DNA of 64,000 nt from Brachionus manjavacas (taxonomy: Eukaryota > Rotifera > Eurotatoria > Ploima > Brachionidae), in assembly GCA_019054805.1 (NCBI GenBank), contig JAHQIY010000003.1, positions 2,046,001 through 2,110,000 of the forward strand. Reading direction: 5' to 3'. This document shows, piece after piece, positions 8,148 to 64,000 of this stretch. The notes under the pieces were generated by a model that did no database searches, had not been told where the DNA came from, and saw nothing but the letters and a program-made list of their open reading frames with translations. Both the position numbers and the translations under genes were made by a program. The number at the start of each line of letters is the position of its first letter. Position 1 is the first letter of the stretch.

Positions 8148-9048
8148 GAGACTATTTTTAGTCAGTAGATATTTATTTTTTCCAGAAGATATTTTATTTT
8201 TTTTTAAAAGATAAAAAAATACAAAGAAAAAGATAAATGTTTTTTATCATATATAATAATTTTTTTATAATAGATAAAAAAAAATTGATTAAGAAAAAAA
8301 ATTTATTTTTTATAATAGATAAAAAAAAAATTGATTAAGAAAAAAAATTAATTAAGAAAAAAAAAAAAAAATTAATTCCGTTTATTACGGTTTTCTTCTC
8401 TTTGATAATCTAGCACTTTGATTTGAATTTTCATCATTTGTTTGATTTTCTGTAATTAAATTGGCATCATTTTTCTTGTTTTTTTTAGGTCTTCCACGTC
8501 CACGTTTTTAAGACTAAGAACTAAGAACCGGTCTTTGTAGATTTTCGTTATCAATCAAATTTGTAGCCGAACTTTGATTAATAAATTGATTGTTAATTGG
8601 AGCTATTGAATTTCTTTCTAGAGATGGATTAGCTTTCTTTTTACGTCCACGTTTAGCATTACCTTCAATTGCCAAATCTAACCCTGGAAATTCATTCAAT
8701 TTCAGAATAAATGATATGCCTATAACATGTTTACATTTGAGATGTTTTTTCCAGTATTCACAGGAACAAGTACTTAGTTGCCAATCGTCAATGTCAATTT
8801 TAATTGAACGAAACTTTTTAATTAATAAGAAACACTTATTAAGTGCTAATTAAGTATAATTAGTTAATCCAACACATAAAAAAAATTATCTACTTAACAA
8901 AACAATTATCTTCGTAACAAAATAATTATCTACCGAAAAAGGTGAAAATCTACTAACAAAAACATTTATCTTTTCATTAAATTATCTTTTTTTTAAAATA
9001 AAATTATCTTCTGAAAAAAACAATTATCTACTAACGAAAAACTATGCC
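8148..9048 (-). mobile_element. MULE derivative with iterated AGATA/TATCT TIRs and 10-bp TSD
   Basis: GTTTAATATC occurs at 8138-8147 and again at 9049-9058, directly bracketing a 901-bp segment. Its ends align as inverted repeats for roughly 100 bp, with the shared string AGTAGATA, then CAGAAGATA, then AAAAGATA reading inward from each side. The left arm holds about six AGATA words and the right arm about eight in complementary orientation. Between them the minus strand codes a MULE SWIM/AT-hook tail (8395-8853). A 9-11 bp target duplication with long TIRs is the Mutator-like signature. Confidence 0.88.
8395..8853 (-). pseudogene. MULE transposase C-terminus: SWIM zinc finger and AT-hooks
   Basis: Reading leftward from 8853, an open stretch contains the SWIM motif CSCEYWKKHLKCKH (CXCX8CXH, about 8775-8734). 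A basic RGRKKK word follows, then two in-frame stops near 8506-8514, and then KRGRGRPKK (AT-hook, near 8480-8505). SWIM domains close metazoan MULE transposases, and AT-hooks bind the minor groove of AT-rich DNA. The DDE catalytic domain is absent, so this is an internal-deletion derivative. Whether any peptide is made is unknown. Confidence 0.8.
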
Positions 9049-9058
9049 GTTTAATATC

Positions 9059-10670
9059 TTCTTTGAGCTGGTTAAAAATTGGCCTCGAGAATACCGTTTC
9101 ACATGGTTTTTGTAATTTTAATTTAATAAAAAATTTATAAAGCCATTTTTTTTACATTTTTAATCATATTGAACACATTTTAACAAATAATGATTAAATT
9201 GAAGCTTTTTTAATTTAATTATTTTTAATTTTTTTCATGATAAGAGCTTCAACGTTCGAAAATAACATAATTCAGGTCATATTTTACCAACTTATAAATG
9301 AACTTGGCTACACGAAGTTAATTTATTTATTTAGATTTTTAGTCAGATAGTATCCGTGGAGATTAAGTGTTAAAAGTATTCAATTTTCTCAATTAATTAG
9401 TTTAGATTACTGAAGGTTTGAGTTAAATATAAACCATATTTTTTAAAGCCTGTCTCTTGAAAATAAAGGAAAATTTTTATTTATTTTTTTTCTGTACCGA
9501 GCTAGGGCTCAATTGATTTTAAAAGTCTATTTAAATGTTTTTAGGACTTTGACAGCTAGTAAACACCTTTCGGTTGTTAGTTAAATGTCAAATTTTAGGA
9601 AAAAAGGATTAAATAATTTCCCTTTTTAAGAAAGGCATTATTTCCATAATGTTTAAAAAGCTTTTGATCAATCGAAATTTTTTTTAGAATATTTTTTCTT
9701 TTTGATTGATTATTCCTTGACAACAAAAAAATAAAAAACAAAAATAATTAAATTATATTAAGAGAGAATGGCTGTCCAAAGTTTAATCTGACTTTTCCTT
9801 TTTTAAAACCTAAAATATTTTTATCATCTTGATAAAACCAATTTAAAAACTTGAGATAATAATAATTATTTTTCTCACTCACCGGGCTCTTAACTTATAT
9901 TATATTTATAAACAATAATTGTTGGCGATATAAATTCCACGATTTATTTTACTATATCACCATTTTTTGGAGAGATTTTGTGTCAAAATGAATCATACGA
10001 TGCGGGTTGAGACATGGGTTCAAACTAAGTAAAAATTTTGTTAAAATTAATAAGAAAGCATTATGAAAGATCCGTAAAACGAGTTCTTTATTCAAAAATT
10101 TTTAAAAAATTGAATTCAAATATTGCTAATATCAGCTGATATCAAGTGATATCAAATGTTATGATATGACAGGTTAATTTCCGGCACTATTATATTAAAT
10201 GAAAAAGGTGAATGTTAATTTCAGAATTATTTTTAAGCAGTCAAATTTTATGAATTATTTAAATGGTTTTTAATTTTTTTAAAAACTCCTTTTTTTAAGC
10301 TTGTCTCTTGAAAATAAAGGTAAATTGATTTTAAAAGTCTATTTAAATGTTTTTTTCAATTTTGAATAATTTGCTTGATTTTTAGATTAAAAATATGTCG
10401 GTCGTAAGAAAAACCAAAGTTCAATTAAATAGAAATTTTACTTTTGAAAGAACATTTATTTTTATTTTCGTAATTATAGTGTATTTTCTTTATTAAAAAA
10501 AAAAAATTAAAAAAAAATAAATTGAAATTTTCAAAATGTTGCACAATTTTTACATACTGGAATTTTTTTTTCCTAGGGATGGGACACCGGTTTAAAATAA
10601 AACCGGTTAAATCTGTTGAATAAGAAGATTAAAAAAAAAACTTCTTTTACTTTATTAATTTTAAGGTATC
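9059..10670. other. Intergenic with a local duplication and LINE-tail scrap
   Basis: Two copies of the same unique sequence lie at about 9444-9540 and 10296-10350. The first carries a 35-bp LINE 3'-end insertion (9476-9510). An ACCGGTTTTA palindrome sits at about 10578-10600. No gene is evident. Confidence 0.55.
9476..9510 (-). mobile_element. Ultra-short LINE 3'-end insertion
   Basis: On the minus strand it reads GAGCCCTAGCTCGGTACAG followed by an A/T-rich tail. These are the last bases of the main LINE family here. The matching empty sequence at 10296-10350 lacks it, and AATT flanks both sides. This is an extreme 5' truncation. Confidence 0.75.
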
Positions 10671-10855
10671 CGATTATTTCGACAAACATGTTTTGACAAG
10701 TATTAATTGGACAAACATATTTCGACTAAATCAATTTCGACAAGTGTTTATTATGACAAGTATTATTTCAACATAAATTAATTAGACAAAAAAAAATAAA
10801 TTAGACAAGTTTTATTTCGACAAAAAAAAATTAGACAAGATTTAGTTAGACAAAA
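10671..10855. repeat. Array of about ten GACAA words next to a MULE fragment
   Basis: GACAAA/GACAAG recurs about every 12-20 bp, commonly preceded by TTTC or TTA. It lies just downstream of the minus-strand MULE transposase fragment at 10877-11281. Its form resembles the arms of the elements at 8.1 and 63.3 kb, but no clear inverted partner or target duplication was found here. Confidence 0.7.
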
Positions 10856-10876
10856 AATATTTTTAGTAAAAAAAAA

Positions 10877-11281
10877 TTAATATTCAATTAATAAAGATAA
10901 ATTGTATAAAAATTCCATTATTTTCTCACTATTGAAGTCGGTAATTATATTTGTAATATGTTCTTCCAATAAAACATATTTGGTTTTTCTTTTGTTAATC
11001 TCACCAGTGCTCAACTTAATATAAATATTTTCAGTATGAGACTGTTCAAGCTTTAAACTATCTATCAAAGATAACAAATGCGGATGTGATTTAATTGTTG
11101 ATTGCAACGCATTATGCCAACCTTCTAAATTATTGTTAGTTCTCGGAAGGCCTAATCTAGTTCTCTCAAAGCAATTCCACAGTTCCAAGCCAAATCTTGG
11201 AGTTTTACGACTAGGTACTTTGGTTCTTTTTTTGCCACCGATGTAATTATCTTCAAAATATGTAAAATATGTTTTTTACCG
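10877..11281 (-). pseudogene. MULE transposase fragment
   Basis: The minus strand reads YIGGKKRTKVPSRKTP and then the family hallmark RTNNNLEGWHNALQ (about 11130-11090), followed by a helical HPHLLSLIDSLKLEQSHTE segment, ending at a stop at 10877-10879. This is the C-terminal side of the MULE DDE domain. The catalytic acidic residues upstream and the SWIM finger downstream are missing. It is probably a truncated element. Confidence 0.8.
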
Positions 11282-12856
11282 GTTTCCAATTCCTAGTTTT
11301 AACAAAATTTTACAATTTTCTAATCTGTTACTTACTCAATTGTTTGTCTACTTCGAATATTTGACTCAATTTGGCAAAGTTGGGTCTAAATTCTAAGTTT
11401 TAAATGTAAAAAATTATACAAATAAAGCAAATAAAAAAACAAGTAAATAATTTTAATTATCATTTGTCAAAACCAAGCTAATGAACTGATGTTGATATCG
11501 TGTTTAAGCAAGTTTGATCAATTTAATGATACTTTTTTTTTTAATATTTTGATTTTTCATACTTTAGTTGTTCCTGGTATCCTAGAGGAGTTTTGAATAA
11601 ATTAAGAAAAAGGTCGTTTTTATTCTTGGCCTCCTAATAAATCTTAAAAAAAAAGAATTTTTTACCAAATAAAATAATTTAGAAAATTTGGCTCACAGTG
11701 CTAATAGGGGAAAAGTAGCTACAGCATTATTTGAATTGCCCTGATTGAGAGAATCCGAAATGGCAAATGGGGACTCTACCTTTTTTTCATAAACATGTGT
11801 TAAAATTGTTTTCAAAAAATCTTCATTCAGTTTGATTTAGTTTTTTGAAATATATTTTTTTTTCAATTAAATTTCTTAAAAAAAATTGAAATAGTATTAA
11901 TTAAAAAATTTTGTCTTCATAAATATTTTATTCAATTTTATCAAATATAATTTAAAAATTTTGTATTTAATCTTTCTATATAAAAGGCTGCAAATCAATT
12001 ATCAAGGCATCATGTAATAAGCCAACCCAAATGACGCTAATTTTTTCAATTTTTATCAACACTTGTTGGGAATCTTTGTGCAAAAAAGAAAACGTGGTAA
12101 AATGTTTTTTATTTTAAGTGAATGATAAAAAATTTAAAAAAAAATGAATTTAATTTCTAATTTTTTCCCAAATATTTAAGGTGCCCCAAGTCATAAACAC
12201 TAGTTTTGGATTTAAAATTTTTAGCTTTTCCAAAAATTTGAAATCTAATGTAATTTTGTGCGTAGAACTCGAATCTGAAATAATTTTTTCATATGTCATC
12301 TTATTTTTGCTGAATTGCATGAAATAAAAATACAAATTTAGTGCATAAGTTTGAACTGATTTTTTCGAAAAATTAAACTGACTTGGAAACTTAATTTTTT
12401 TTTCTTCAGATAGTAGAGGAAATGTACTTTCTAATCTTGTGTATTTTTTTTCACCCATTCAATAAAAATCCCTAACAATTTAAACGCAAAGTTTTGAAAA
12501 AATTCGATGATTTAGCGTTTTTGGCATTTTATTTCTCCTGTAAAATTATTTCAAAATAGATAATTTTTTTTTATTTAAGAGAACTAAGTCTCCTCTATAG
12601 AAATAGATGGGGGTTTGTTGATATCTTGTCTTAAAAGCATTCTATTTAGATTTAAAATCAGTAAAATATTAATATGTTATTTTGAATTTTATTTTATTCA
12701 TCTAGTTTAGTTAATCTTAATTTAATTTTGTTAATATGAGTTATTTAAAATGAAAATTAAACAAAAAGCAGGGAATTTATGAAAGCGCTCGATTAGGGAT
12801 TAATTTTTTTTCAAAGAACTTTCAATTTTTATATAGAAACTATAAGGAATAGTTAA
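11282..12856. other. AT-rich spacer, one doubtful ORF
   Basis: A 102-codon minus-strand frame at 12150-12458 (starts MGEKKYTRLEST) has no recognisable family and Lys/Phe-rich composition. It may be chance or a worn repeat. Nothing else is supported. Confidence 0.4.
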
Positions 12857-14092
12857 TTAATTAGAATACATCCATATTCTGATTGTTTTATCATCCGAGC
12901 AACTTGCCAAATCACCATTTTGAAGAATTGCTAGTGACCTTATTCCCCCTGTGTGACCAGTCAAAGTCATTTTTTCAGTTCCATCAATTGGATTCCATAT
13001 TTTAATTGTTTTATCGCTTGAACCACTAGCTAAATCACCGTTATTAAGAACTGCAAGTGACAAAACCCTATCCAAATGACCATTTAATGTCATTTTTTCT
13101 GATCTATCAAATAAATCCCATATTTTAATGGTATTATCCCATGATCCACTTGTCAAATCACCATTTTGAAGAACTGCAAGACAAACAACATTACTTGAAT
13201 GACCATTTAATGTCGTTTTTAAAGTTCCATCATTTGGATTCCATATTTTAACTGTTCGATCCCACGATCCACTGGCCAAATCACCATTTTGAAGGACAGC
13301 AAGACAAACAACATAGTTTGAATGTCCACTTAAAGTAATTATTTCACTTCCATCAATTGTATTCCATATTTTTATTTTATTATCATATGACCCACTAGCT
13401 AAATTCCCATTTTGAAGGACAGCAAGACAAACAACATAGTTTGAATGGCCACTTAATGTCATTTTCAAAGTTCCATCAATTGGATTCCAGATTTTTATTG
13501 TATCATCTCTTAATCCATAAGCCAAATCTCCATTTTGTAGAACTGCAAGTGAGGAATGCAAACTTGAATAACCACTTATAGTCATTTTTTCAGTTCCATC
13601 AATTGGATTCCATATTTTAATTGAGTTATCATATGATCCACTAGCTAAATCACCATTTTGAAGAATTGCAATTGAAACTACAGAATTTGAGTGACCATTT
13701 AAAGTATTTTTGACTTGAAATATTAATATTAAGCCTTTTTATTCAATTAAATGATAGTGTTTACTTGCTAGATTCGAATTTGTTTTTGAGCATTTTAATC
13801 TTTTCTCTAAAACAATTGAATTTTTTCTGTTTAGTCTGTTTTCACTTGTTATACAGCCCCTAAAAATAGTACATATTTTATCTCTTAGCATCACCATATT
13901 ACAATCGTTTATTTTCATGCATTCAGTGGCACATAAAAATTGATTTTTTGCTTTAAACTTTATTGATTCTTCATGATTTGTTTCAGTTACAAGAATTTCT
14001 TTTCCTTCAAATCTCTTAAAATACAGTTCAATTTTTTCACCCTTTAATCCGATTATCGTTATCAACAATATTTTATAAATAGCTTGACTCAT
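12857..14092 (-). CDS. PAN/apple-like plus seven-bladed WD40 protein
   Basis: Two predicted exons (14092-13765 and 13713-12857) are joined by a 51-bp intron with GTAAAC donor and CAAG acceptor, giving 394 residues. The intron removes the only in-frame stop, and both exons share a frame. Residues 1-25 include a short hydrophobic run (KILLITIIGLKG) that could be a weak signal or anchor. Residues 45-105 carry a Cys pattern (FLCATECMKINDCNMV..C) typical of PAN/apple modules. Seven WD40 blades of 41 residues follow, each with GH near the start and IKIW at the end. Blades are nearly identical in places (VVCLAVLQNGDLASGS), implying recent amplification. PAN modules act outside cells and WD40 propellers usually inside, so location and ligand are unknown. 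It stands alone on the minus strand, with no operon-like partner. Confidence 0.75.
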
Positions 14093-15154: not shown

Positions 15155-15470
15155 TCCGTACAAGCGGACACCAGCCAAAAATTTTAAGAACTGAGACCGT
15201 GGCCGCATTAGCCCCGTCATTTTGCCGGTCAGCCAGGTGGTCTTATTTTTGTACCGCCAAAATAAACGCTCAAAAAATAAGTGCAGACAAAAATATGGCC
15301 AAATTCATGACAGTTGGTCACGTAAATTGAAAAAATCTTTTAAATTTAAAAAAAAAGTAAAAAAAAAATTTTTTTATTAAAATAGTTTTTTAAATAAATC
15401 TTCTTTTCTTAAATTTTCTGAAAGTTTAAGTGACCGCCTGCCTAAAAAATGAAGAACAAAAAAATCTTAA
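15155..15470. repeat. Second copy of the GGTC/GACC repeat family
   Basis: Shares the words GTCAT..TG.CCGGTCAGC.AGG.GGTCTT and CGCCAAAATAAA with the element at 6282-6760 and ends with GTGACCGCCTGCC. It is more diverged and without clean ends. Confidence 0.6.
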
Positions 15471-15559
15471 CGAGTATTAGAAATTTCAAATGCCTTAAAA
15501 AAACTAAAAGAACTAGCTGGTCCTTTATTTTCTTATTTAAAAATTTTTAGAGCCGTATT

Positions 15560-16728: not shown

Positions 16729-19700
16729 GTACTTTTTTGGTCAATTTTTCATTTTTTAAATAAATTTTCAAAAAAAAATTTTATTTTTTTTAAATTTTTA
16801 AAGGCAGTGTGTTTGTATATTCACCAAAGACGATTTAATCGAAAAGTTCCACCACTTTTTGCACCAAATAATATCTCTGTCAATAATAGCCATTAAAAAT
16901 GTGTGCAGTCCTCCGACCGAAAGCGACCAACCGAGTCCACAAGTGCTTAATAGCTCGGTGGACTTTAAAGAAAAGCTGCTGAGCGCGCTCGTCAAAGTGT
17001 TCTCGTTGAACATGCCCCTTTATTTGACTTACAAGCACTTGCTCTTTAACAACCACGGCCGATACTCGCCACTACCTGATTGCTCTTGCTCCAATCTGAG
17101 CCAAGACTCGCTGAACTTGATACAAATTTATTGTATCACTAGTCAAGCTTCGTCGCCTGCAAATAAATCACTAAATCAAGTACTTTTTAATAGAATAAAA
17201 TAAAATATTTGAGAAAAAGATAATGTTTTTTATTTTATTTTTTTCAGGATCTTGACAATTTACCAGTGGAATTTTTAAGAAATATATGTCATTTTGTCGA
17301 CTTGTACGGTCTTGTTTCTATTAAAGAGTGCTTTAATAGCGAACAGTCTATCAATTTACCTCTAAGTTTAGTTCATCTTTTATTCAATTTAATTGTAAAT
17401 GTAAGTTGTTTTTTATTTATTTATCTATATTGCTCATAGCTAGCAAAAAAATAAGTTTTATTAAAAATATTGTTTAATTGATTTATTGATATTAAAATTT
17501 TGTGCGTTTAGTTTTGAAGTAAATTATTATTTAGTTTTTTTTTCAATCAAATTAGAAAAAATTAAACAAATTTTATCTTTAGATATGTTCTTTTAGGCTT
17601 TTACCTTTTTCAATAATATTTTTATGAGTCATTTTTGCTTATAAAAAAAACTATATGTTCCTCGACGAGACTGTTCAAATTTAATTATGTAATCAATTGT
17701 TTGTAAATCATTTAATTGAGATTAGTAAATTTGGTGAAATAAAATTTCTTCATTATTTTTTTATCACCTAAAATTATTTCCTAATTATTATTTTGTATTA
17801 AGTTTTTTTTTTTAAATAAAATACAATTTCAAGAAAATTAACAGCTAAAAAAAATTTTTGATGCATTTAAATATATATTTTTTTTTGCAGAATAATTTAA
17901 CTTTTTTTATCGGCGAATTATGACTTTAAAGCCAACTTTATATAAAATATTCTCTTTTTTTTCTAAAAATTTTTCTTTAGAATAAACCTGTGCCAAGAAA
18001 TGATCTTTGTAAAGGAAAAAATATTTTGATTAAATTTTTTTAATAAAAATTTTGCAGTCTATTTCGATTTAAATCATATTTTCTACAAAGACAATTATTG
18101 GCAATATTTACTTACTGTAAAAAGTTTTTTTGGTACAAAATTTACTATTAGCAAAATTAATTCAAGTGCAATTAAGTGGAAAATTTCATGTAATTTTTCT
18201 AAATAAAGATTAAACAAGTCATTTTTAATAAATTTTAGTCATTTATTACTAAAAAAATTGATAAATAATACCTTTATTTAAACCAAAAATTAAAAATTTT
18301 TATTTGAAATTTTGATCATGAACTTCAATTTGCCTTTTTGTTGCAGTAAACCTAAAATTTCCACATTTTCTAAAAAAAAATGAAAAAAATTAATGAATAA
18401 TCCCGAAACTTTTTTTTATATTATTCATTTTCTTCAATTTGTAAAACTATTAGATAAAAAATTTTAACTTGTTAATTATGTGCATCTTTTTTTAAAATTG
18501 AAAACAATGTTCAATTTAAAAAAAGGTTTTATTATAAATTAAGGTTTAAAATGGCAAGGTAAATACATAAAATGAGCCCAAAGATTCTAATGAAATTGGG
18601 ATGGAAGAATCTTGAGATTTCAGCCAGTCTTAGGTACTTGGCTGATGGCAATTAAAACATCAAAATCCTGGGGGAGTATGCAAGAATTTAGGTAATTAAA
18701 AAATAAAAAGTAATTGTATTTTAAGGGAATTTTATTTATAATGACGAGAGAATTTTTTTTTTAATGGACAGAGATAGGTATTTTTTTCGGCTTTTCTTTT
18801 TTACCATTTCTTAATATTTCTTTAAGATAAAAGTGGCCATTTAATAAAAAAAAATTAAATAATAAAACTAAAAACTAAATGAAAATATTATTTGGTAGAT
18901 AAAGAAATTAATTTATGGAAAATAAATTCAAAATAAAGAAAAATTTTTCTTCTCCAATTGCTTCTAGCTTGAATATTGCCAACGTCAAAGTAATTTTTGA
19001 AATAGCTCTTTTATTTTTTGCTTCAATTAACCTGGTTTAATTTTCCTTTTCGTTTCCAAAGTTCATTTCGGTTATTTATTTGAAAATTTATTTGCTCATA
19101 CTTTTTGGATTATATGCACGTGAATATACAGTGTTGATTTGCTTCCTGGATTTTATCAAATTTTACGTAAAATTACGTAAATTAACTAAATTTGCGTAAA
19201 ATGACTTTTGTAAAAAATAGTAAATTTACGTAAAATTACGTAAAATATTGTAAATATTAGTTAAACCAGATTTTACGTAAAATTTGGTAAATTTCGAACA
19301 TTTTACGTAAATTTATGTATAAAAAAATCTCCAAAAAATTGAAATAATTTGGCATTTTTTTAAAAAAATAGAATTTTCTTTATCCTTTTATTTTCTAAAT
19401 TATCTAAAAAAAAATTACCATAATTAACGTAAATTTTGGTAAAATGTAATTAATTTAATAGTAGAAAATAGTAAAAATGGTGAAAAATGGTTAATTAAAA
19501 TTTAGACATTAAGACTTTTTTAGTTTTCTAGGTACAAGTTATAATATATCAACTAAACTCTACTTGATTTAATACAAAATTAACTTGATAAATTTTTTTT
19601 TTATTTTGAGGATGTGATTATTCTGGTTAATTTCAGTTAACTTTAAATTTAAAATCTCAAGAGATGTAGTTAAAAATTTTACCTTAAAAAATTTAAAAAT

Positions 19701-46700: not shown

Positions 46701-49700
46701 CGCCATCGCCCAACGCTGCGAGCTGAGCGTGACGCGCCAATTTCTGTCCGCCTACATCTCTCTGCTGGACGAAAAGCAGCCCATCCGCCACATGTCCGAA
46801 TACTTCGTCTTTTTGACCGAGTACAGCCGTCTGGGCGAGCAGCACAACCTCGCTCTGCTAGAACTGGACCTGGTCAAGCACTTGTGCGCGTTCTATGCGC
46901 GCAATCGGCGCCGAGACGCGGCCAACTCGGCCCAGCTCGCCGACTCCGACAACTCGGACTTTTCTGTCGACAATTTGGACTCCGAGTCGGACTCGGACCA
47001 GGACATAGTGGCGCTCAGCGATCAGCGCTCCAAGCCAAAGGTGTTCGAAAAAATGCTGCTCCTGCTGGTCGAGCTGAGCGAGTCGCATCTTGCCTATGTG
47101 CACAGAAACTACCAGCTAAAGCAGATCAAATTGCTCATCAAGGTTCCCCTGTCGTTTTTCTACAAGACCATTCTGGACGGCCTGAGTCTGTCCGCTGTCA
47201 AACAGCTGCTCGTCAATGTGACTCGCCTGCGCACCGATCTCATGTGCCAGTTCAAGCCTGGCGTTTATGTGCGCAAGTTTGTCGACATGTGCGTGAAGTC
47301 GATTGGCGTGCTGGCCAAAAAGAGCTCGGATCCGGACAAGTACATGAACTTTTTTAATGCCATCGGATGCCTGCTGAGCCTAGTGCCGGACCGTGTGTGT
47401 CCGGACGAGATCGAGTGCGCTCTGTGCGAAAACGAGTCGGTGAGCACGGACTTTGGCGAGTTGGTGACTGAAAAATTGTCCGATTTGCTTATCTCGGCGC
47501 CGTACTACACGCTGCGCTGGCTGGCGGGCGTGGGCAACGCGCGCCTCGAGCTCTGGCTGCTAGACAACATGTCCGCGTGGGTCAAGCGGCTGCTCATAGA
47601 CGCCAAACAGACCCAGGTGCGCTTTTCGGCCGCGGTCCTGCTCGCCAACCTGGTGCCCGACCGCGACTTCCGCCACCAGTTCACCTCCAACCGCAACATG
47701 CTCACGCCGTACCGCGCCGAGCCCCACCAGCTCACCGACTCGTTCACTCGCACCGTCAACACAATCCTGCGCCATCTCCTCTCACTACTGAACATGCCAC
47801 TGGCCCACACCGACTCCCAGCAGTGCCACACCACCAACCTAATCCAATACTTCACTCTGCTCATCTACTTGATGCTCGGCAACGAACAAAAGCGCCTTGT
47901 GGTCCAGAACAGCGCGCTGCAGCTCTTCTGGGACAACATCTTTTTCAAGCACATGGCCAACAGTCACGTGAGCACAAATCTAAACAAACAAGTGATGATT
48001 CATTTTGTGTACCATTGTTTGAATGGGTGCACCGAAGTGCTCGACTATGTGACCAAGTACACGGACAAATTTGAGGAGAGGATGGCCCGAGAGCTGCCGC
48101 TGTGCACGGTCATAGTCGACCACGAGGACACCGAGCTGATCAGCTACAACAAACAGTGTTTGCATCCGTTCTACGGCGCCATCCGGCTCCTGTGCGAGCA
48201 CTCGCGCCTCTACTTGCGCCACATGTGCGAGCACTCGAATTTGCAGTGGGCTTTCAAGCACGTGTTGCCCTATTCGATGCACTACGGGATGGCGTGCACC
48301 GAGCTGGTCAAGCTGGTCGAGTTGATGAGCGGCGAGAGTGGCCAGCTCAAGGAGAGCGTGTGCGCTCAGTTTTTGATGGGCACGGCCGTCGAGGCCAAGC
48401 ACAGCTTTCAGTCGATTGTGTGGGTGGCGAAGGCGGTGATGCGCACAAGCGATGACGTCACAATGGTGCTGACCAGGCGCGGTCTGTCCACGCTCAGCGC
48501 TTGTCTCTTTCAGCTGGTGGTGGCGTACAACAGCAACAGCTCGGCGGAGGGCCACGACCTGGCCGATTGTCTGCTCTTGCTCAAGAGCCTGGTGCAGAGT
48601 GTGCGCCTGCATTTGGACGCGAACACGCACGCCATCCAGCAAATAGTGGCCAATTGGAAGGAAAAGTTCGAGCTGGTCAAGCGGCTGGTGGTGCTGGTGA
48701 ATTTTTCGGTGGCGGGGAGCACGCGCGCCACCGCTCTCGAGCTCCTGCGTCTCGTCCTCCAAATCAACCCGGTCGAGATGGCCGTCAACACCGTCGCCAT
48801 CCTCAAACAGTCCTATTCCGGCCTAAGCTACTACCAAAGTTGTCAGTCGTATCAGAAGGGCTCCATATTGAGCGCCAAGCCGACAGTGAACTCGCTGCAC
48901 AAGTGCTTCATGGGCAATCAGAGCATCAATCAAGCTGTTTGTTTGATGGGTCCTTATTTTCCTCTGCCCGGCAATTGTGTACTCGGCGCCAAGAAGCTAA
49001 AAGCAGCGTTCAATTTGTATCTTCCTCTTACTCTAGTCAATCACTGTCACTATGACGGCTCTGTGTACATGCTGTCCAAAATAGTGGGCCATCTGAGTGA
49101 ATACGAGAAAAGCCTGCGCGACTCCTTTCTGCCCTTGTTCAATTTCTACCATTTTCTTTTCAAACTGCTGTTCGATCAACTGACCAGTCTGAGTGAAGCG
49201 AACACCAAAAACCTGGTCGATCTCGTGTTAATAGTGAGCGCTCAGTCCATGTACTTCAACATTCATTTCATCGGCTATTTGAGCGAGAGGCTCGCCTGTC
49301 TCACCGAACACATCAGCGACTCAATTCACTTGAACCACTTTGTGCGCGTCCTAATCACCGACTACCGTCACTTGGTGTCACGTGACGAGTACGCCACTTT
49401 TCTGGCCGGCTTCCTGGGCCGCTTTGTGCGCAATCTGCTGCCGCGCAACCAGCTCAAAAGCGACACCTTTTCCCACCTGCTCAGTCAGACAATCAAGAAC
49501 ACAATCCGCTTGAGCCTGTCGACCATAAATGAAACGCGCTTCTACTTTGACTTTAGCGCAGACAAACTGAGCGACGAGTGCGCGCTCAATTTGGACACCA
49601 AGCTCTCGGCCATGCTGGGAAGCATCAAGTGTGTGCACATGATAACACGTGCTGTGTCCAGATGCAAAGTGGACAAGCAATTTGTGAAATTTGTGAAGCA

Positions 49701-50070
49701 GCTAAAGGACTTTTTTGTGTCCTATTGGGAGCATGTGAGCAAGCAGAGCGAAGAAATGGCCAAGTACTTGGACGACGAGGGACACAGGAGCAAAAAGGTG
49801 AAGCTGGACGAGGTGGAGGGCGGCGACTTGCGCGCTCGCCTCGAATCCAAGCGAAAGTGCGCTGGTGCTGTGCTCGAAGCGCTCAAGGAAAACATCGAAC
49901 TGATGAATGGCTTGATGCAGGGTCTAGAGGCCATGGACGACGAGTCCACGGATGAAACCACCGACAACGAAACCAGTTCGTCCAGCTCGTCCAGCCAAGA
50001 AGCGAGCACTGAGTCTGGCAGCAACAATGAACTCGAGAGCGCGTCCGAACACGAACAAACAAATGCCTAA
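16523..50070 (+). CDS. USP34: Ubiquitin carboxyl-terminal hydrolase 34 homologue (9 exons)
   Basis: Exons: 16523-16728, 16804-17179, 17248-17400, 19736-20215, 20268-20360, 22999-23794, 29208-30653, 36526-38912 and 45928-50070. All junctions are GT..AG and all phases agree, giving 3359 residues (human about 3546). USP34 removes ubiquitin from substrates and is known from Wnt/axin and DNA-damage signalling. Visible here: armadillo-like N-terminal helices; an acidic linker (exon 6); a ubiquitin-like fold across exons 7-8; the USP catalytic domain at about 1766-2096 with Cys-box NLGATCYM (Cys about 1776), His-box DGGHYYSF (His about 2033) and FNDAEV (Asp about 2053); then a long helical C-terminal region. 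The start is the ATG at 16523; an upstream in-frame Met at 16406 is followed by a non-conserved hydrophobic stretch and is less likely. Paralogues USP9X and USP24 match less well around the Cys box. No break was found. Confidence 0.95.
16804..17179 (+). CDS. USP34: USP34 exon 2
   Basis: Includes the motif FKEKLLSALVKVFSLNMPLY, conserved in USP34 N-terminal helices, and a Cys-rich CSCSNL stretch. It is followed by a 68-bp intron (17180-17247). Confidence 0.9.
17248..17400 (+). CDS. USP34: USP34 exon 3
   Basis: Fifty-one codons with no in-frame ATG. Reads LPVEFLRNICHFVDLYGL, matching the family helix just before the IRxWL block. Canonical GTAAGT donor. Confidence 0.92.
17401..19735. other. USP34 intron 3 with ACGT-rich array
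   Basis: A 2.3-kb AT-rich intron. The only structure is an array of TTTACGTAAAATT-like words at 19150-19450. 18541-18700 is somewhat GC-richer, without an assignable function. Confidence 0.6.
19736..20215 (+). CDS. USP34: USP34 exon 4
   Basis: Begins IRVWLNSTFV, runs through YMCSLCDKDLRLAGTRNT and ends ELADWFVQNNIIEYLYGPNL, all close to vertebrate USP34. An SQSSSSSDQ Ser-rich insert sits in the middle. It is followed by a 52-bp intron. Confidence 0.95.
20268..20360 (+). CDS. USP34: USP34 exon 5
   Basis: Thirty-one codons reading IKRSQDIVNFLAFTNRLTE and ending IWASAQ, exactly where the family has IWAAAQ. Donor GTAAGT. Confidence 0.93.
21040..22790 (-). mobile_element. LINE fragments in USP34 intron 5
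   Basis: At least four minus-strand pieces of the main LINE family: RT C-terminal side (FADDLVTFF near 21350-21330, down to 21060), a 3' end with C-terminal coding (21420-21990), an RT core piece with PQGSVISPLLFSIY (22180-22520), and another 3' end (22545-22790). The order is scrambled, with stops and frameshifts. They are likely separate truncated insertions. Confidence 0.8.
22999..23794 (+). CDS. USP34: USP34 exon 6 (acidic linker)
   Basis: The start is set by conservation: LKYCSKSVMETLISLIKHLD follows a TTTAAAG acceptor, upstream of the first ATG. After TDQTLFLSALLTKTQW the exon becomes strongly Glu/Asp/Ser-rich (EESEEEEESEESEHES), as in other USP34 proteins. Ends in phase 1. Confidence 0.93.
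24694..26459. mobile_element. Possible 1.8-kb TIR element TATGGTAA..AGCCTAA
   Basis: The left end TATGGTAACACAGCCTAA is a rough inverted match to the right end TTAGGCTCATTTACCATA. Similar TTAGGCCATCTTACCATA ends a related repeat at 61250-61390. Interior words such as TTCGGTGAC and AATGGGTGAGTCAA are shared. It contains the nested MITE 25290-25874. Confidence 0.45.
25290..25874. mobile_element. MITE with about 164-bp terminal inverted repeats
   Basis: 25290-25453 and 25711-25874 are near-perfect inverted copies (outer end ATAACGTAATGGTCCGATAA), with a short indel near the ends and a 257-bp loop of unrelated AT-rich sequence. No ORF. It lies in USP34 intron 6, so the pre-mRNA would form a long hairpin. 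Confidence 0.9.
26800..27400 (-). pseudogene. LINE ORF2 C-terminal fragment
   Basis: Minus strand reads LYLQSKLSFIETLKYN and then LASQIFHDLSISPRING. The same pattern occurs on the plus strand at 57125-57397 (QSKLSFLATLKFN). The family resembles the region after RT in jockey/CR1-like LINEs. Frameshifts are present. Confidence 0.65.
27603..28324 (-). mobile_element. KRBA2/Ginger-like integrase remnant with palindromic TIRs
   Basis: About 75-bp terminal inverted repeats, each containing an imperfect palindrome TTTACTG.TAGA.CAGTAAA (about 27647-27670 and 28260-28283). The minus-strand core (28140-27890) codes a scrap like the C-terminus of KRBA2/Ginger integrases (RAQKMMTGSKKYFPET), then in other frames a Cys-rich tail (VKCNC..., NRCGCKKSHLYNSRCHGG). 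The arms are studded with TTTACTGAAA words. It is dead: frameshifted and missing the DDE core. Confidence 0.65.
28340..28800 (-). pseudogene. LINE linker fragment between nuclease and RT
   Basis: Minus strand reads SSWFDSELRHLRNHRDFCYHN, a pattern typical of the segment between endonuclease and RT in jockey/CR1-like LINEs, with broken frames on both sides. Confidence 0.6.
29208..30653 (+). CDS. USP34: USP34 exon 7
   Basis: Starts in phase 1 (Asp codon split across intron 6) and reads NTFLWDLLMNQ, then SKDQHALSVDKFKLIF, both family hallmarks. Near its end a ubiquitin-like fold begins (VRFVCHVNSTRFNFELL). GC content is well above the surroundings. Ends CAAG|GTATGA. Confidence 0.95.
30654..31484. 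other. USP34 intron 7, unassigned AT-rich part
   Basis: No coding or repeat structure that I can name. Confidence 0.5.
31494..32176 (-). mobile_element. MULE derivative with 9-bp TSD and TGTCATTT-type arms
   Basis: TTTTGAAAA at 31485-31493 and 32177-32185 brackets 683 bp. Reading inward, both ends have ATATTAAAG(T/C)GTCATTTATTT at the same distance from the flank. Further in, TGTCATTT words on the left are complementary to AATGAC words on the right. The minus strand between them codes scraps ending in the MULE-like tail FPAEACDIPLGK, a stop, then RGVGRPKK (AT-hook, about 31735-31715). No DDE domain. Confidence 0.82.
32249..33165 (+). mobile_element. 5'-truncated LINE, RT C-terminus to 3' end
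   Basis: Starts inside RT just after the FADD box with ENKINKYTNELEQWL and continues through QKEIKFLGIRFDSKLNF. A frameshift follows, then the C-terminal LFELSEKYVGTGLSHSIPL, and the 3' UTR ends GGAGCTCTAGCTCGGTACAG with an AATAAATAAAAT tail. Closely related to the copy at 50.6 kb. Confidence 0.88.
33166..33490 (-). pseudogene. Second LINE subfamily, C-terminal fragment
   Basis: Minus strand reads NIYKSLIGSIFDYSFF and LQNISIKYSYNFPQDTPSDLL, the same domain as the main LINE but clearly diverged. It abuts the 3' end of the preceding LINE. Confidence 0.75.
33491..35320. other. USP34 intron 7 middle part; two unassigned scraps
   Basis: A 102-codon minus frame at 34056-34364 has no recognisable family. 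On the plus strand about 34962-35080 reads WIFEYLDVYENGRCFTFNL, which faintly recalls the extracellular region of DEG/ENaC channels. Neither is supported as a gene. Confidence 0.35.
35325..35620 (-). pseudogene. LINE C-terminal fragment with (TAG)n tail
   Basis: Minus strand reads NDFAAAVNARHVFFSNRVVPHWN and then ENVVKSKSTANFK, the last domain of another LINE family (compare 42.1 and 44.0 kb). The TAGTAGTAG repeat at 35325-35340 is its 3' tail. Confidence 0.7.
35621..36525. other. End of USP34 intron 7
   Basis: AT-rich, no recognisable element. The acceptor is TTTCCAG at 36519-36525. Confidence 0.5.
36526..38912 (+). CDS. USP34: USP34 exon 8 (USP domain, Cys box)
   Basis: Completes the ubiquitin-like fold (GQELTTESKLLSELGLKD), then helical repeats, and from about 38271 the USP domain: YLGLVNLGATCYM with the catalytic Cys codon at 38301-38303. 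TGEQKDMQEFFTDL, KKLFGGVITNVV and the zinc-finger CxxC (YTCSTCSKK) follow. Exon GC is roughly twice that of the flanking introns. Ends LKEK|GTAAGT in phase 0. Confidence 0.97.
39027..39345. repeat. Small foldback in USP34 intron 8
   Basis: A 28-bp direct repeat AAAGACGTGACTAATTTTAA (start of it) occurs at 39035 and 39260. Around it, 39155-39187 and 39309-39340 form a 30-bp inverted repeat containing TCGGACTCTTT. The word CTTAGTTTC..AGAGTCCGA recurs at 45.29 and 45.75 kb. Confidence 0.65.
39346..39530 (-). pseudogene. R2/NeSL-like LINE C-terminal scrap
   Basis: Minus strand reads MQWLRCFDFKREMEGLIMI and then DQAFNMRYHHQK, like the segment before the CCHC region of LINEs whose C-terminus has a W..G.LK.ETEG...A.QDQAL.TR pattern. 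A different family from the jockey/CR1-like copies. Confidence 0.55.
39585..40460 (-). mobile_element. LINE ORF2 C-terminal half with (AAT)n tail
   Basis: Minus strand from 40457 is open for 127 codons (VLKYTEVERDLGIMLYSNLK, ENVQKRATKLVKQFKNLDY). After one frameshift it continues with FFTYRVTMPWNAVPQEIV to about 39800. The 3' end has a GCAAG/CTTGC-rich segment and an AAT repeat at 39588-39602. It lies in USP34 intron 8. Confidence 0.82.
41602..41842. repeat. Near-perfect 82-bp inverted repeat with 76-bp loop
   Basis: 41602-41683 and 41760-41842 are complementary over their full length except for one extra A. Such low divergence implies recent origin or recent correction. No ORF. Probably a MITE or foldback element within USP34 intron 8. 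Confidence 0.92.
42120..42430 (-). pseudogene. LINE C-terminal fragment
   Basis: Minus strand reads YFTYRVVGVWNNFPEEIV, the terminal motif of the LINE family also seen at 44.0 and 61.0 kb. A TAGTAG tail lies at 42122-42140. Confidence 0.75.
43265..43302. repeat. (AAT)n microsatellite
   Basis: About eight AAT units in the plus strand. Probably the tail of a degraded LINE, since the same repeat ends the copies at 39.6 and 45.3 kb. Confidence 0.7.
43520..43760 (-). pseudogene. Unassigned coding-like scrap
   Basis: Minus strand from about 43750 reads MAQAIGVDN, ESLRKEQKRTVDTIM and PSRKCEQVLLEKRVRG in three frames. It looks like a frameshifted protein fragment, but I do not recognise the family. 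Confidence 0.4.
43960..44650 (-). mobile_element. LINE ORF2 C-terminal fragment
   Basis: Minus strand reads KEKDLGI, WSNQVNIAAHKANSFLGSV, then after a frameshift SVQRRATKLVPELKESSYP and FNFFRNRVVNVWN. This is the standard C-terminal domain of CR1/jockey-like LINE ORF2. It has one main frameshift near 44370. Confidence 0.85.
45278..45800. repeat. Direct repeat pair flanking a LINE tail and poly-A
   Basis: The word ATATTCTTAGTTTCAGAGAC with a following AGTCC.ATTTTTC occurs at 45286 and 45740. Between them lie an AAT repeat plus a GCAAGCGAGCTTGC hairpin (45331-45420, minus-strand LINE 3' end) and a 22-bp A run (45661-45682). Confidence 0.65.
45928..50070 (+). CDS. USP34: USP34 exon 9 (USP His box to C-terminus)
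   Basis: A single 4143-bp exon. It completes the catalytic domain (VNTYFSFPLEL, HTGTADGGHYYSF with His codon 46087-46089, WFFFNDAEVKPF with Asp codon 46147-46149, AYMLFYKK), then about 1280 residues of helical C-terminal region with conserved blocks such as MLQWIDLL, LNKQVMIHFVYHC and MGPYFPLPGNC. Ends in a Ser/Glu-rich tail and TAA. The exon is GC-rich against AT-rich flanks. Its many overlapping frames on both strands are by-products of that composition. Confidence 0.97.
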   Translation: MNTYFSFPLELNMSGYMEQNLIESGKKAGSESGADFVYDLIGVTVHTGTADGGHYYSFIQEMGPASPKWFFFNDAEVKPFEVDSQLAAECFGGETTSKSYDCHSDKFTDLSYEKTNSAYMLFYKKRSGARQPPSSRCNDHTLLSQIWHDNLKFITDRLLFDTSYFSFVFELSDLALHSPALSLCGAQLAITFFLQTFIHSREKHHMLQWIDLLGKLFAHKHSCQWLLERLASSTEWMRKILTKCPQVSIRSAFQKFLLAIAQRCELSVTRQFLSAYISLLDEKQPIRHMSEYFVFLTEYSRLGEQHNLALLELDLVKHLCAFYARNRRRDAANSAQLADSDNSDFSVDNLDSESDSDQDIVALSDQRSKPKVFEKMLLLLVELSESHLAYVHRNYQLKQIKLLIKVPLSFFYKTILDGLSLSAVKQLLVNVTRLRTDLMCQFKPGVYVRKFVDMCVKSIGVLAKKSSDPDKYMNFFNAIGCLLSLVPDRVCPDEIECALCENESVSTDFGELVTEKLSDLLISAPYYTLRWLAGVGNARLELWLLDNMSAWVKRLLIDAKQTQVRFSAAVLLANLVPDRDFRHQFTSNRNMLTPYRAEPHQLTDSFTRTVNTILRHLLSLLNMPLAHTDSQQCHTTNLIQYFTLLIYLMLGNEQKRLVVQNSALQLFWDNIFFKHMANSHVSTNLNKQVMIHFVYHCLNGCTEVLDYVTKYTDKFEERMARELPLCTVIVDHEDTELISYNKQCLHPFYGAIRLLCEHSRLYLRHMCEHSNLQWAFKHVLPYSMHYGMACTELVKLVELMSGESGQLKESVCAQFLMGTAVEAKHSFQSIVWVAKAVMRTSDDVTMVLTRRGLSTLSACLFQLVVAYNSNSSAEGHDLADCLLLLKSLVQSVRLHLDANTHAIQQIVANWKEKFELVKRLVVLVNFSVAGSTRATALELLRLVLQINPVEMAVNTVAILKQSYSGLSYYQSCQSYQKGSILSAKPTVNSLHKCFMGNQSINQAVCLMGPYFPLPGNCVLGAKKLKAAFNLYLPLTLVNHCHYDGSVYMLSKIVGHLSEYEKSLRDSFLPLFNFYHFLFKLLFDQLTSLSEANTKNLVDLVLIVSAQSMYFNIHFIGYLSERLACLTEHISDSIHLNHFVRVLITDYRHLVSRDEYATFLAGFLGRFVRNLLPRNQLKSDTFSHLLSQTIKNTIRLSLSTINETRFYFDFSADKLSDECALNLDTKLSAMLGSIKCVHMITRAVSRCKVDKQFVKFVKQLKDFFVSYWEHVSKQSEEMAKYLDDEGHRSKKVKLDEVEGGDLRARLESKRKCAGAVLEALKENIELMNGLMQGLEAMDDESTDETTDNETSSSSSSSQEASTESGSNNELESASEHEQTNA

Positions 50071-50071
50071 T

Positions 50072-50106
<35 letters not shown>

Positions 50107-53485: not shown

Positions 53486-53539
53486 AGTTTTTCAGCGATT
53501 TAATATAAACTTTAATCTAATGAATTATTAATCTATTTT

Positions 53540-58400: not shown

Positions 58401-61400
58401 TATTCAAAATTGTTCAAAGCATACAGAGAAAATAGCTGTGATCTAGACCACTGGGCTTCGCAATGGTGGAAACCAGTATTTAATTGCCTGGAATCGGATA
58501 ACAAAACCCGTAGATCGTACATTTATGAGTATTTGCTGCCGCGAGTCATGAAGCTGTATCCAGACGGAATTCATCACTGTCAAAAGCTTTCAAAAAATTT
58601 CTCCACCATCATCTCTTGTACCAAAGTCACGCGGACCCTCGGTCATCTAAGCAAGGACACAAATGGCAAGAACTTATTCGGAAATTTGGACGCAGCCATT
58701 TTAGAGAAAGCTTTGGTCCATAATGACCAACAAGTGAAAGACTAGTAAAAAAGAAGTTTTTCTTTAATTTTTTTGTTTTTGTTTTAGACCAGATTGGATT
58801 CTCTGGCTTTGCTGTGCGAAAATCCGAAAACAACTGAGCCAATTCAAGAAATTGAGTTTGAGCTGGTCAAAAAGTTTCTCTGCTTTAATTCAGATGTTCA
58901 GTCGGCCTCCTATCGGCAAACAGTGAACACTTCTATGAAAAAATTATTTTTTAGATTTAAAGACAGCTGGCTGAGTGTGTGCAGACTTGACCAAAGGTCG
59001 AAAAATAATTCTGCTCAGCCAAATGGCCCATTTCCAAAGCTCAATGAACTGTACAAAAGTTTCATGCAGTGGCTAATTGCTTTTATTTTTGACTCGATTC
59101 ACTTGGACTCCACCTTTGCCAAACGAAACCAAAATTTACTTTTATTCAGCTTGTTTGTTGAAATAATTGGCACTCGGCTTGCTGATGCAAACAATAATCA
59201 ATCAGGTGGGCTTTATCTTTTTTAATTTAAATAATTATTCAACATTTGAAAAGAATTTAATTATTTTTCCCTGATAAAAGGTTTTTTTTTATTTTTTTTT
59301 TAGAAATAGCTTCATCAAACTCTAAATTAAATATTTTCAAAAATTATTTTTTATTCAGGAGCACCAGAGAGTGATCATTTTTAAATGCTGAATATTTTAA
59401 AAGAAAAAAAATATAAGAAAATTAAATTAAGAAATATCTAAATAAAATTTTAGTAAAATAAAATTTTTTTAAGTAAATAATGGTAATAAAATGTTCAATT
59501 AGTTTAAAGATAATTAAAATAAAATTTTCAAATTGTTTTAGTGTTTTGTTAAAAATGATCTCTTTTCTTCGTTTTCAATTTCTTCATTTCTTTATCTGAA
59601 ATTCAATTATTGTAAGATGGGGATATTATTTAATGTGTAAACCGGGTGACAACTTTGATAAGTGTTATTTTTTCATCATTAACATTAGATGACTTAAATT
59701 TTTTTAAAATAATTATTTAAGAGAGAGTACGTAGAAAAAAAAGATTTTTTTGTTTTATATGTGCTTATCTTTTTGAGGCTGAAAAATGACTTCAAAAAAA
59801 ATCCAGTTGCAAATTGATTAAGTTTGCCTCAATATTAATAATTTTGTTAAATCTGGGATTTAAGTAAATTTTATTTTTGAGAAATTATTTCCTGCAATTG
59901 AAAAAAGAATTTTCAATATTTTTTTCAAATCTTCATAATTGAAATTAAAATCGTAAGTAAATTTTGAATGAGTTTAATTTTTATTTTGAAATTTGAAAAA
60001 AATACTGAAAATTCTTTTTTTAGCTTTTAAAAATTAATTTTAAAGTAGTAGCAGTAGTATAAATGGGCGTAAATTTTTTTGCGGTGACAAATTAAATTTT
60101 TTCAAGATGACAAAAATAACTAAAAGTGATGACTAATTTAATCTGTTTTACCTTACTATAAAAACTAATTTTTCTGACAAAAAACAAAACGACTGACAAA
60201 TTTTTATATATAGACTTTTTAATAACTTTTCACTGACACAATAAAACCTTATTTGTAGACAAAAAAAACTAATTTCAGGAACGAAAATATTTAAATGACA
60301 AAATGAATTAATTGATTTACAAAAAAATAAATTTAGATAAAACATAAAAAAATAAAAACGATTAATTTTTTCTTGGTTTTTTTACCTGAGTTATTGATTT
60401 CTTTGGCCTTCCTTGTTTTCTTGGTAAATCCACTGTAGCTTCGACTGTAGCTTCAACTCTAGCTTTAGAAAAATATGTTTTCTCAACGACTATTGATTCA
60501 CTAGGAGGCTCTTGTTCGACAACTGCTCGCTCGAGATCAGATTCATTTTCTGAACTGTTCAAATCACAATCATTTTGGTAAAACAAAGCTGTTTTTTGTT
60601 TTTTTGGTCTTCCTCTTTTGCGTTTCTTACCAATTGAAATAGTTTTAGCTTCTTCTGGGATAATGTAAAGCTTGTAACGGAATGCAAGGCCAAGAAAATG
60701 AATGTAGATGTAGTGTTTAGCAATAAACGCTGTGGGAGACTTGAGTCTCCAAGTAGTGGCGCACGTAGACACTCACTATAACAGCCAATTGCCAATTTTT
60801 TTAAATAAGCATCTTTTTAGATTTCTTTTTTTTACATATTTTAAATAACTTTCATTTAACATGGTTTTAAATAATTCAATAATTCATTTTAAATAATAAA
60901 TAAACTATTTTTAGATGCAAGAAAAATATTTAAACTTTAATCGCATCAAAATATTTTTATTAAATTTTTCATCTGAGTAACTTGTCGATTCTTTTTTTAA
61001 AAATTTTCGTATTGCTGACACTCTTTGTCACCGCATCTAGCGTGTTCCAGTTTCCTGCTGTTCGGTTTGTAAAAAAATTGAAATTATAAATAAAAAAATT
61101 TTTTCTCACTTCACAATTGCGGATTAGCTGTCGCAATTAATTGTAAAGTAGTTAAATCCATATCGACTATAAAAAACTTATTGATGAAATTAATTTTTTT
61201 ATTCCTTTAGAATTTTAAAAGAGCAATCTTAATAAATAGCCTCTCACGCGGTTAACCGATTGATCTATGTGGGTGAGTCAAAATCTTGGGTCAAATTAAG
61301 TGATCAGATTTCGAATTTTCTCACCTTAGTTTGCTTAAATTTGAATTATTTTAAAATTAGGTCTCCTGGTTAGGCCATCTTACCATATAAATTTTACATT

Positions 61401-63047: not shown

Positions 63048-63267
63048 GTAAGTTACATAACTACATAACGTTAAGATTAAACCCCAACTCGTTACAAACC
63101 ATTTCGGTGGGATTTAGATCTGGGGATCTAGAAAATTTAAAATTATGAAATTTTTTTACAAATTCTTTCAGGAACTAATAAATTTTTTAATATTACCAAA
63201 AATTACAACAAATATTGTAATTAATTAAAAGGTTTTGTATGAACAAATATTTTTTGTTTAAAAAAAA

Positions 63268-64000
63268 GGCAGGGAGAGTTAATTAATTTATTGGAAATTA
63301 AAGCTGTTAATAAGGAATATGTCAATTATAAAAAATATTTGTCAATTAAAATAGAATAAATGAAAATTAACTATTTAATAATTGTCAATTATATCTGTTA
63401 ATTTTGAGTCCTAAAAGTAAATGTCTCATTACGACCTCCAAAAAAAATGTTAAGGAAGTAGAAATGAAGTAGATTCATTCAAGCCAATAGATAAAGAACG
63501 CTGTAAGAATTATATTCAGATGCTAAATCAATGTGAGTGCAACAGCTTTCAACATTTCGTCGATACTTTCCAAGAATTACGCATTATTCGCCTAAATGAA
63601 GACAATTGGCGTTTGAGCACATGTACTTGTCCATCGTGGTTTAAACATTATATGTGCAAGCACATATTAGGAATTGCCTTTCGAGATAGATTATTTACAG
63701 AATTTCCAAAGAAGCCTGGACAATAGGACTTGGTCAAGTTGCGAGTGTTGGACGATTTTTGTTATATTTTCTTTCATTTTATTTTTTTTACTTGACAAAT
63801 AATTTTATATTTCACAGAAAAAAATTTTTTTCATTGAAAAATTTGTTTATATTATATTGACAAATATTTTTTTTATTGACAAATATAAAAACTAATTGAC
63901 AAAACATTTATTTAAATGACATTTATTTCTTCAGATTGACACTAGTATAACTGACGAATTATCTAGTTTTAATTGACAAATATTTGTTTTTTAATTGACA
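63268..64000 (+). mobile_element. MULE derivative with TGTCAA/TTGACA arms, cut by window end
   Basis: The left arm (63310-63425) carries TGTCAATTA words and the right arm (from 63785) at least eight TTGACA/TGACA words, complementary in orientation. Between them a SWIM-coding segment is on the plus strand. The left boundary is a guess, and the right boundary and any target duplication lie outside. Confidence 0.75.
63466..63726 (+). pseudogene. MULE transposase C-terminus with intact SWIM finger
   Basis: Open from about 63466 to the stop at 63724-63726. It reads FQELRIIRLNEDNWRLSTC and then the SWIM motif CTCPSWFKHYMCKH (CXCX8CXH) and ILGIAFRDRLF, followed by a stop without an AT-hook. The DDE domain is absent. 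Lies within THADA intron 6 in the sense orientation. Confidence 0.8.

Follow-up and report, generated by a model that had tools for sequence, protein, structure and literature searches.

Word-array islands in a contig of the rotifer Brachionus manjavacas as probable deleted and truncated copies of array-ended Mutator-like elements

In Drosophila, FB/NOF elements combine foldback ends made of short repeats with a transposase of the Mutator-like element (MULE) type. Here we describe a 64,000-nucleotide stretch of the rotifer Brachionus manjavacas (contig JAHQIY010000003.1, positions 2,046,001 to 2,110,000; hereafter the window), in which islands of arrayed short words adjoin remnants of MULE transposases, together with the families to which these islands belong. 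Repeat arrays in MULE ends are already known (PMC5225508, PMC3169594). In Aedes aegypti, the terminal inverted repeat (TIR) of Muta1 consists of a tip and 9 copies of a 12-bp repeat with spacers of 3-4 bp, giving a period of 15-16 bp; 10 of 12 long-TIR MULE families of this species carry short subterminal repeats of 9-15 bp, 13 of 14 families have a FLYWCH finger, and many derivatives and duplications of 8-9 bp are described (PMC5225508). The Mutator/Foldback element Tm1 of root-knot nematodes has composite TIRs with a redundant motif of about 14 bp, 9-bp duplications and derivatives resembling miniature inverted-repeat transposable elements (PMC3169594). The VANDAL elements of Arabidopsis carry short, family-specific arrayed motifs that change together between related elements (PMC5735166), and in Galileo (PMC3688188) and Hermes (PMC10368747), which unlike the elements studied here belong to the P and hAT superfamilies, each end has several sites for the transposase zinc finger, and a higher-order multimer has been proposed for the former and shown for the latter. 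The Galileo account describes binding to the repeats of Foldback and Phantom elements as untested (PMC3688188).

We place the elements described here with the foldback/Muta1-like MULEs. Those of their families that lack a SWIM finger mostly have a period of 13-16 bp (8 of 11), comparable with the 15-16 bp of Muta1 (PMC5225508), and their period fits both published relatives, Muta1 with its FLYWCH finger and Tm1 with its motifs of about 14 bp. Unlike in the Muta1 account, we also find a SWIM-linked class with a period of 20-22 bp and a common order of spacings with changed words, whereas Tm1 is described as one family, without comparison of words between transposase lineages (PMC3169594); the VANDAL motifs occupy non-coding sequence, where a separate anti-silencing protein, VANC, recognises them (PMC5735166), whereas the words here are terminal and inverted. 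We found no report of the SWIM-linked 20-22 bp class, or of a spacing order with exchanged words, in the open-access literature searched, as far as its accessible text goes. An earlier note on this DNA had proposed a possible undescribed MULE lineage, which is unsupported as stated, MULEs with repeats inside their ends having been published (PMC5225508, PMC3169594).

We conclude, with a probability of about 0.8, that the islands are internally deleted or truncated MULE copies that have inverted, phased arms of family-specific words and may be movable by full copies. The arms, their inversion and phase, the target-site duplications, the full-length relatives, a deletion series and broken reading frames were all observed directly, and there is nothing unusual about the islands as such, which arose by deletion or truncation of array-ended MULEs. 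The MULE-type DDE domain (PF10551) is absent from them because they are deleted or truncated copies; it is present in relatives of the islands at 8.1, 10.7, 60.1 and 63.3 kb, and no DDE-bearing relative was identified for the island at 31.5 kb. The earlier note had listed four islands, at 8.1, 31.5, 60.1 and 63.3 kb, as word arrays adjoining a kept SWIM/AT-hook tail without a DDE domain. All four do bear arrays, arrays do adjoin transposase tails, and a fifth island at 10.7 kb was overlooked; the missing DDE domain describes the islands and not their lineage, given the DDE-bearing relatives of the 8.1, 60.1 and 63.3 kb islands, and the SWIM finger is kept at 8.1 and 63.3 kb but degenerate at 60.1 kb, the AT-hook at 31.5 kb being a mere trace.

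The genome comprises 114 Mb in 61 contigs, and GC content in the window is mostly 23-36%. A search with the MULE domain (PF10551) found at least 150 places (150 of 394 candidates were scored, and all matched). Within the window, a scan for arrays against an order-2 background with a cut of 10^-6 recovered those at 8.7-9.0, 10.5-10.8, 60.0 and 63.6 kb (10^-6.4 to 10^-8.6); the 31.5 kb island stayed below this cut, and other stretches passed it, including coding repeats and a TACGTA array at 19 kb.

The 8.1 kb island is a complete non-autonomous element, an internal-deletion derivative. Its 901 bp (8148-9048) retain positions 1-362, 497-785 and 2504-2751 of a 2751-bp copy, L080, and lie between two copies of a 10-bp target-site duplication, GTTTAATATC (8138-8147 and 9049-9058). 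The left arm (8148-8370, plus strand), on the 3' side of the gene, is made of AGATA words and the right arm (8873-9048, plus strand), on the 5' side, of TTATCT words, its spacing order being taken from full-length L080; with AGATA in the one and TATCT in the other, the arms are inverted. The minus strand between them carries a 111-codon open frame with a SWIM finger (8514-8849, E 7.9e-5) and no Met in frame, and, in a separate open frame, the AT-hook remnant KRGRGRP (8488-8507).

We read 20 copies of this family, the places with long matches among 40 scored of 99 candidates, a search by which one-ended copies were possibly missed; one of them (L093) is the window copy. Four are full-length at about 2.75 kb (L078, L080, L081 and L085), one (L076) measures 2.2 kb, with the DDE domain kept and half of the SWIM finger gone, and 15 miss the catalytic DDE domain. 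Both ends are present in all 20, and the target-site duplication is an exact 10 bp in 18 of them; in L086 it measures 9 bp, as it does, by eye, in L075, all within the 8-10 bp of the MULE superfamily. L087 and L088 have a common duplication and therefore represent one insertion. Overlaps of 1-7 bp occur at nine of the 14 distinct deletion junctions.

At 10.7 kb lies the 3' end of a SWIM-less MULE, with a 3' arm of TTGTC[TG]AA words on the gene strand, 14-16 and once 19 bp apart (10676-10860, minus strand), and the C-terminal part of the transposase open reading frame (ORF; 10877-11275, minus strand); over 612 bp (10664-11275) it shares 98.9% identity with L026, a locus that bears a DDE domain. 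At 31.5 kb, a complete non-autonomous element of 683 bp (31494-32176) has inverted arrays of ATGACA-type words in both arms and is flanked by the 9-bp duplication TTTTGAAAA (31485-31493 and 32177-32185). Its family is homogeneous, the main matches being 88-98% identical (40 scored of 107 candidates) and 24 of the 40 scored places, the window copy counted, covering the query nearly end to end; its AT-hook lies in no ORF of at least 30 aa.

The islands at 60.1 and 63.3 kb are 3' parts of SWIM-type MULEs. The former, which carries TGACAAA words and GRPKK motifs, has a 3' arm reading TTTGTCA on the gene strand (60063-60340, minus strand, bounds approximate) and a tail frame with a degenerate SWIM finger and two GRPKK motifs, without Met (60365-60772, minus strand); the SWIM domain search gave no match in this island, and no target-site duplication was seen by eye. 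Arm and tail (60060-60723) have at least 30 further matches of 75-89% identity in the genome, 40 of 428 candidates having been scored, and one of these matches (C15:1949453-1950056) overlaps a SWIM match and adjoins a DDE match; homology with the SWIM/DDE-bearing relatives stops at 60723, and from 60724 another set of places matches. The 63.3 kb island has TGTCAATT words on its 5' side (63281-63430, plus strand, bounds approximate), an open frame bearing a SWIM finger (63454-63726, plus strand, E 2.1e-6) with a Met ahead of it, and a 3' arm of ATTGACAAAT words (63780-64000, plus strand), the TTGACA words passing the window end (L061). For this piece, with 40 of 299 candidates scored, at least 23 further matches of 70-95% identity were obtained, and two of them adjoin DDE matches on the same strand; a search for its target-site duplication gave matches inside the array only.

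Arrays of this kind recur at other MULE loci of the genome. Of 60 MULE/SWIM loci compared, which include many copies from the same families, 17 reach an inverted-word score of at least 8, compared with one of 87 control windows (9.2; this control window holds the 8.1 kb island itself), while direct-word scores of at least 8 occur in 3/60 loci and 2/87 controls. The inverted arms are long, imperfect TIRs whose likeness resides mostly in the words, with about 4-20 copies of a word of some 8-10 bp running head to tail in each arm and inverted between arms. On the gene strand the words include TTATCT, TTRCTAC, TTAATGCT, TTATAGCA, TTATCTAGT, AATTTGACA, TGACTTT, GCTTGACTT and TTTGTTTA, and further TTGTCGGA, TTGTCTAA, TTTCTATG, TATCGAAA, GTGGGGA and TGACAATT. 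That the word differs by family, as the earlier note proposed, is borne out by word profiles: with a profile learned on the 3' arm, the 5' arm is attributed to the correct family in 15 of 19 cases, and that family is among the top two in 18, and two of the four misassigned 5' arms go to a sister family. These 19 families were preselected for arrays on both arms, and the assignment therefore shows that words are distinct, not that arrays exist.

Genome-wide counts of word pairs, compared with a reversed-pattern control, gave 147 pairs of AATTTGAC (control 14), 193 of TTTCTATG (control 10) and 251 of the AT-rich AATTATCT (control 130), the listed pairs including many near-identical, and so not independent, copies. 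Among 100 listed pairs each, TTTCTATG is spaced at 14-16 bp in 80 and at 20-23 bp in none, and AATTTGAC at 20-23 bp in 47, at 14-16 bp in 20 and at 35 bp in 11. One candidate counter-example to family-specific words, L005, with a transposase like that of L001 and another word, was set aside as a TTCTCTAA-flanked element carrying an L001-type piece: at C4:2272213-2275506, TTCTCTAA arms enclose part of an L001-type transposase, truncated at the 5' end and 98% identical, either through nested insertion or through capture.

The period of the arrays differs with the class of transposase. As read from 6-mer autocorrelation over windows of 260 bp flanking the genes, with a family cut-off of n>=10 (the 99th percentile of control windows), it is 19-23 bp in 11 of 12 SWIM families and 13-16 bp in 8 of 11 SWIM-less ones (Fisher p 1e-4); the SWIM families, including islands of the earlier note, have this longer period in place of the 14-16 bp of Foldback/Muta1-like elements. 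Left out of this table, by our choice, were L003, L097 and L019 (no SWIM visible in the copy, with periods of 20, 20 and 25), F052 (strong windows representing a nested or host array, or lying outside the arms), the arrays of L005, L054 and L057 (other elements' by their word), the coding repeat of L059 and, for falling under n>=10, among others F094, F095, L023, L024 and L004. A period prediction, fixed once eight further 3' pieces had been collected but ahead of their analysis, agreed in all four with readable class and array, namely SWIM-type L094 (20), L095 (21) and L096 (20) and SWIM-less L098 (16); SWIM was judged by eye in L095 and L096, both missed by the regular expression, and L094 and L095 lie, like L100 and L101, below an n of 10. 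A FLYWCH finger was found in L006 (1.4e-13), and neither the FLYWCH nor the SWIM Pfam model matched L011. Additional stretches downstream of the MULE domains of SWIM-less loci resemble, by their motifs, Ulp1 protease (L025, L014) and OTU (L020).

Several observations weigh against our conclusion or narrow it. Many loci show no array within 1.5 kb on each side, and the presence of both ends in all 20 copies of the 8.1 kb family may be partly an effect of the search. Frames are broken in all four full-length copies, so that present activity is uncertain; some breaks may be assembly errors. Exceptions to the periods are F013 (14 bp), the 5' arm of L026 (22), the 3' arm of L006 (26) and L015 (17); among the further pieces, that of L097, with a period of 20, includes an AT-hook and no SWIM, that of L099 includes a SWIM finger, with no array found, and L100 (16) and L101 (14) are weak, with their class not seen. 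The Fisher test, moreover, counts related families as independent. In a tree of DDE domains, built without the 8.1 kb family, the SWIM-less rows except L018 form one clade (support 100/100) and the SWIM label needs two changes, so that class and period are inseparable by independent events and their link amounts in effect to one or two such events; L018 itself is SWIM-less and sits on a long branch on the SWIM side, with a one-sided, irregular array.

Some SWIM families with different words share not only the period but also the order of spacings, approximately 20-23, 22, 14-16, 20, 20 and 20 bp, with the words TTATCT (F8.1), TTRCTAC (F040), TTAATGC (F043) and ATTTGACA/ATTGACA (F058/W63.3). 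Read from the terminus inward, the 5' arm of F8.1 has spacings of 20 22 16 40 20 20 (L080) and that of F040 of 21 22 14 20 20 20; after one outer hit, the 5' arm of F043 reads 21 22 16 20 20 20 and the 3' arm of W63.3 22 22 15 20 20 20, and the 3' arm of F058 reads 20 23 22 15 20 20 20 from the terminus. These five arms are more alike than shuffled orders (0/5000 shuffles as low), having been chosen post hoc from 15 usable ones, with outlying tip hits set aside and the 40-bp gap read as 20+20; all 15 arms, unmerged, show a modest excess (52/2000), and the layout match of F001 and F011 is weak alone (333/20000). Identity of the spacers between families is 0.30-0.36, compared with 0.31-0.35 expected by composition, in four of five pairs, and 0.47 in F8.1/F043; only spacer figures are used, since word registers differ and between-family word identity is not meaningful. 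Six pairs among the order-sharing families have tail differences of 0.33-0.58, the others being absent from the list of the 16 closest, and some families that are just as close (F050, F052, F095 and F096) do not show the order.

Words follow lineage in part. Families of the SWIM-less clade resemble one another in their words according to DDE distance (r=0.65, p=0.002, nine families; reverse-complement control r=0.17), while for tail distance no significant relation to the word was found across 15 SWIM families (r=0.14, p=0.12; control r=0.09; F013 was dropped for its empty profile, r being 0.14 both ways and p 0.15 before). The four SWIM pairs with tail differences below 0.5 have a mean word similarity of 0.57, versus 0.35 for the rest (p=0.006); for the closest tails, p runs from 0.006 to 0.012 at cut-offs of 0.5-0.6, and is 0.03 and 0.10 without two weak rows. 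The earlier note's expectation that the tail differs with the word is thus right at the level of families, with no significant proportional relation across the 15 SWIM families; words go with tail distance among the closest tails only. From these comparisons, words seem to turn over faster than tails.

We tentatively propose, with somewhat more doubt than confidence, that more than 15 co-resident MULE families have a common end scaffold, in which spacing is kept and the word replaced at most sites of both arms, the order having been retained in F8.1, F040, F043 and F058-W63.3 and the phase being set by the SWIM tail. As far as sequence comparison can suggest, the scaffold may be inherited, with the letters of the word changing together at most sites, as a moving transposase specificity would explain, and word exchange (ATTTGACA and others) may give each family a largely private key; alternatively, the arms may have converged on a geometry dictated by a protein multimer.

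The word is probably an address read by the transposase, that is, a putative binding site. Its preferred phase is about 20-22 bp (two helical turns) in families with a C-terminal SWIM finger and about 14-16 bp (some 1.5 turns) in those without. Several transposase subunits may bind the words along each arm, the phase serving their multimer; the two arms would then be brought together and the element cut out and reinserted, leaving a 9-10-bp duplication. Internal deletion strips the middle and spares both arms, so that deleted copies would still be movable in trans by the enzyme of a full copy. The words could instead be by-products of replication slippage, ordinary minisatellites without a role in recognition. 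Some arms are indeed near-perfect tandem repeats, such as TTGTCGGA at 14 bp in L027/L028, with up to 19-20 copies, some spacer positions are also alike within F8.1 and F001, and arrays of other kinds, such as TTACGTAA, are abundant; yet spacers are at chance between families in four of five tested pairs while the phase is kept, word orientation inverts between arms, and families with different words have a common spacing order (0/5000 for the five chosen arms, 52/2000 for all 15), all of which makes slippage unlikely. Slightly less probable still is a reading in which an anti-silencing or regulatory factor encoded by the element, and not the transposase, would recognise the words, after the example of VANC proteins, which bind short, family-specific arrayed motifs that change between related elements (PMC5735166): the only long gene-strand frames seen in the 8.1 kb family are those of the transposase, and the arrays stand at the two tips and inverted, as transposase sites should.

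The retained tails call for an account of their own. The earlier note had considered tail-only competitors, in which a SWIM/AT-hook protein made by deleted copies would occupy the words of full elements and repress them, as KP-type repressors do for the P element. In keeping with this, SWIM is kept in 8 of the 15 DDE-less copies of the 8.1 kb family (L093, L074, L075, L079, L083, L084, L091 and L092), most breakpoints in this family spare more of the 3' than of the 5' side of the gene, and the 63.3 kb frame has its Met before SWIM. Nevertheless, the remaining seven have no intact SWIM finger, five of them keeping only the AT-hook (L077, L082, L087, L088 and L090) and two neither (L086 and L089); in none of the 20 copies does a frame run from the presumed start codon through to SWIM or hook, and the start region is missing from seven. 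The window copy and the 60.1 kb tail, further, have no Met in the tail frame, and the window copy of the 31.5 kb family (40 scored places) has no hook in any ORF of at least 30 aa. With no start-to-tail frame in 20 copies and the tail sometimes lost, we reject this explanation for the 8.1 kb family and regard it as highly improbable overall. The simple retention of 3' ends by internal deletion, which the earlier note had named as undercutting any function, holds for this family: the tail is kept in many deleted copies because it adjoins the 3' arm, not because it is functional.

Some further features were recorded along the way. An array of the palindrome TTACGTAA occupies 19163-19310 and another 24118-24249; genome-wide, TTACGTAA forms 1392 pairs (start-to-start 10-38 bp), compared with 12 in the reversed-pattern control, and a hand count over 50 distinct listed places gave spacings of 10 bp in 15, 20 in 12, 30 in 13, 19 or 29 in 5 and others in 5. 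The repeat over 19162-19501 is 80% identical to a repeat in L057. A local MULE cluster (C18:1098172-1129517) holds eight domain matches of similar score in about 31 kb, on both strands. In the window, large ubiquitin hydrolase frames lie at 36519-38966 and 45928-50070, with the UCH domain split over two open frames and in 2-kb bins of 40-57% GC, and a WD40-repeat frame at 12857-13738 contains a 123-bp tandem repeat.

How related transposases avoid moving each other's copies is an open question, and the genome-wide regularity behind these islands offers a suitable system for studying how ends are recognised: within a single genome, many related families combine a similar layout of their ends with different words, so that recognition could be mapped by swaps of domains and words among close relatives. 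Should words indeed be exchanged under a retained order of spacings, phase and word would be separable parts of a recognition code, and these families would then provide a natural series for the co-change of a protein and dozens of its binding sites.

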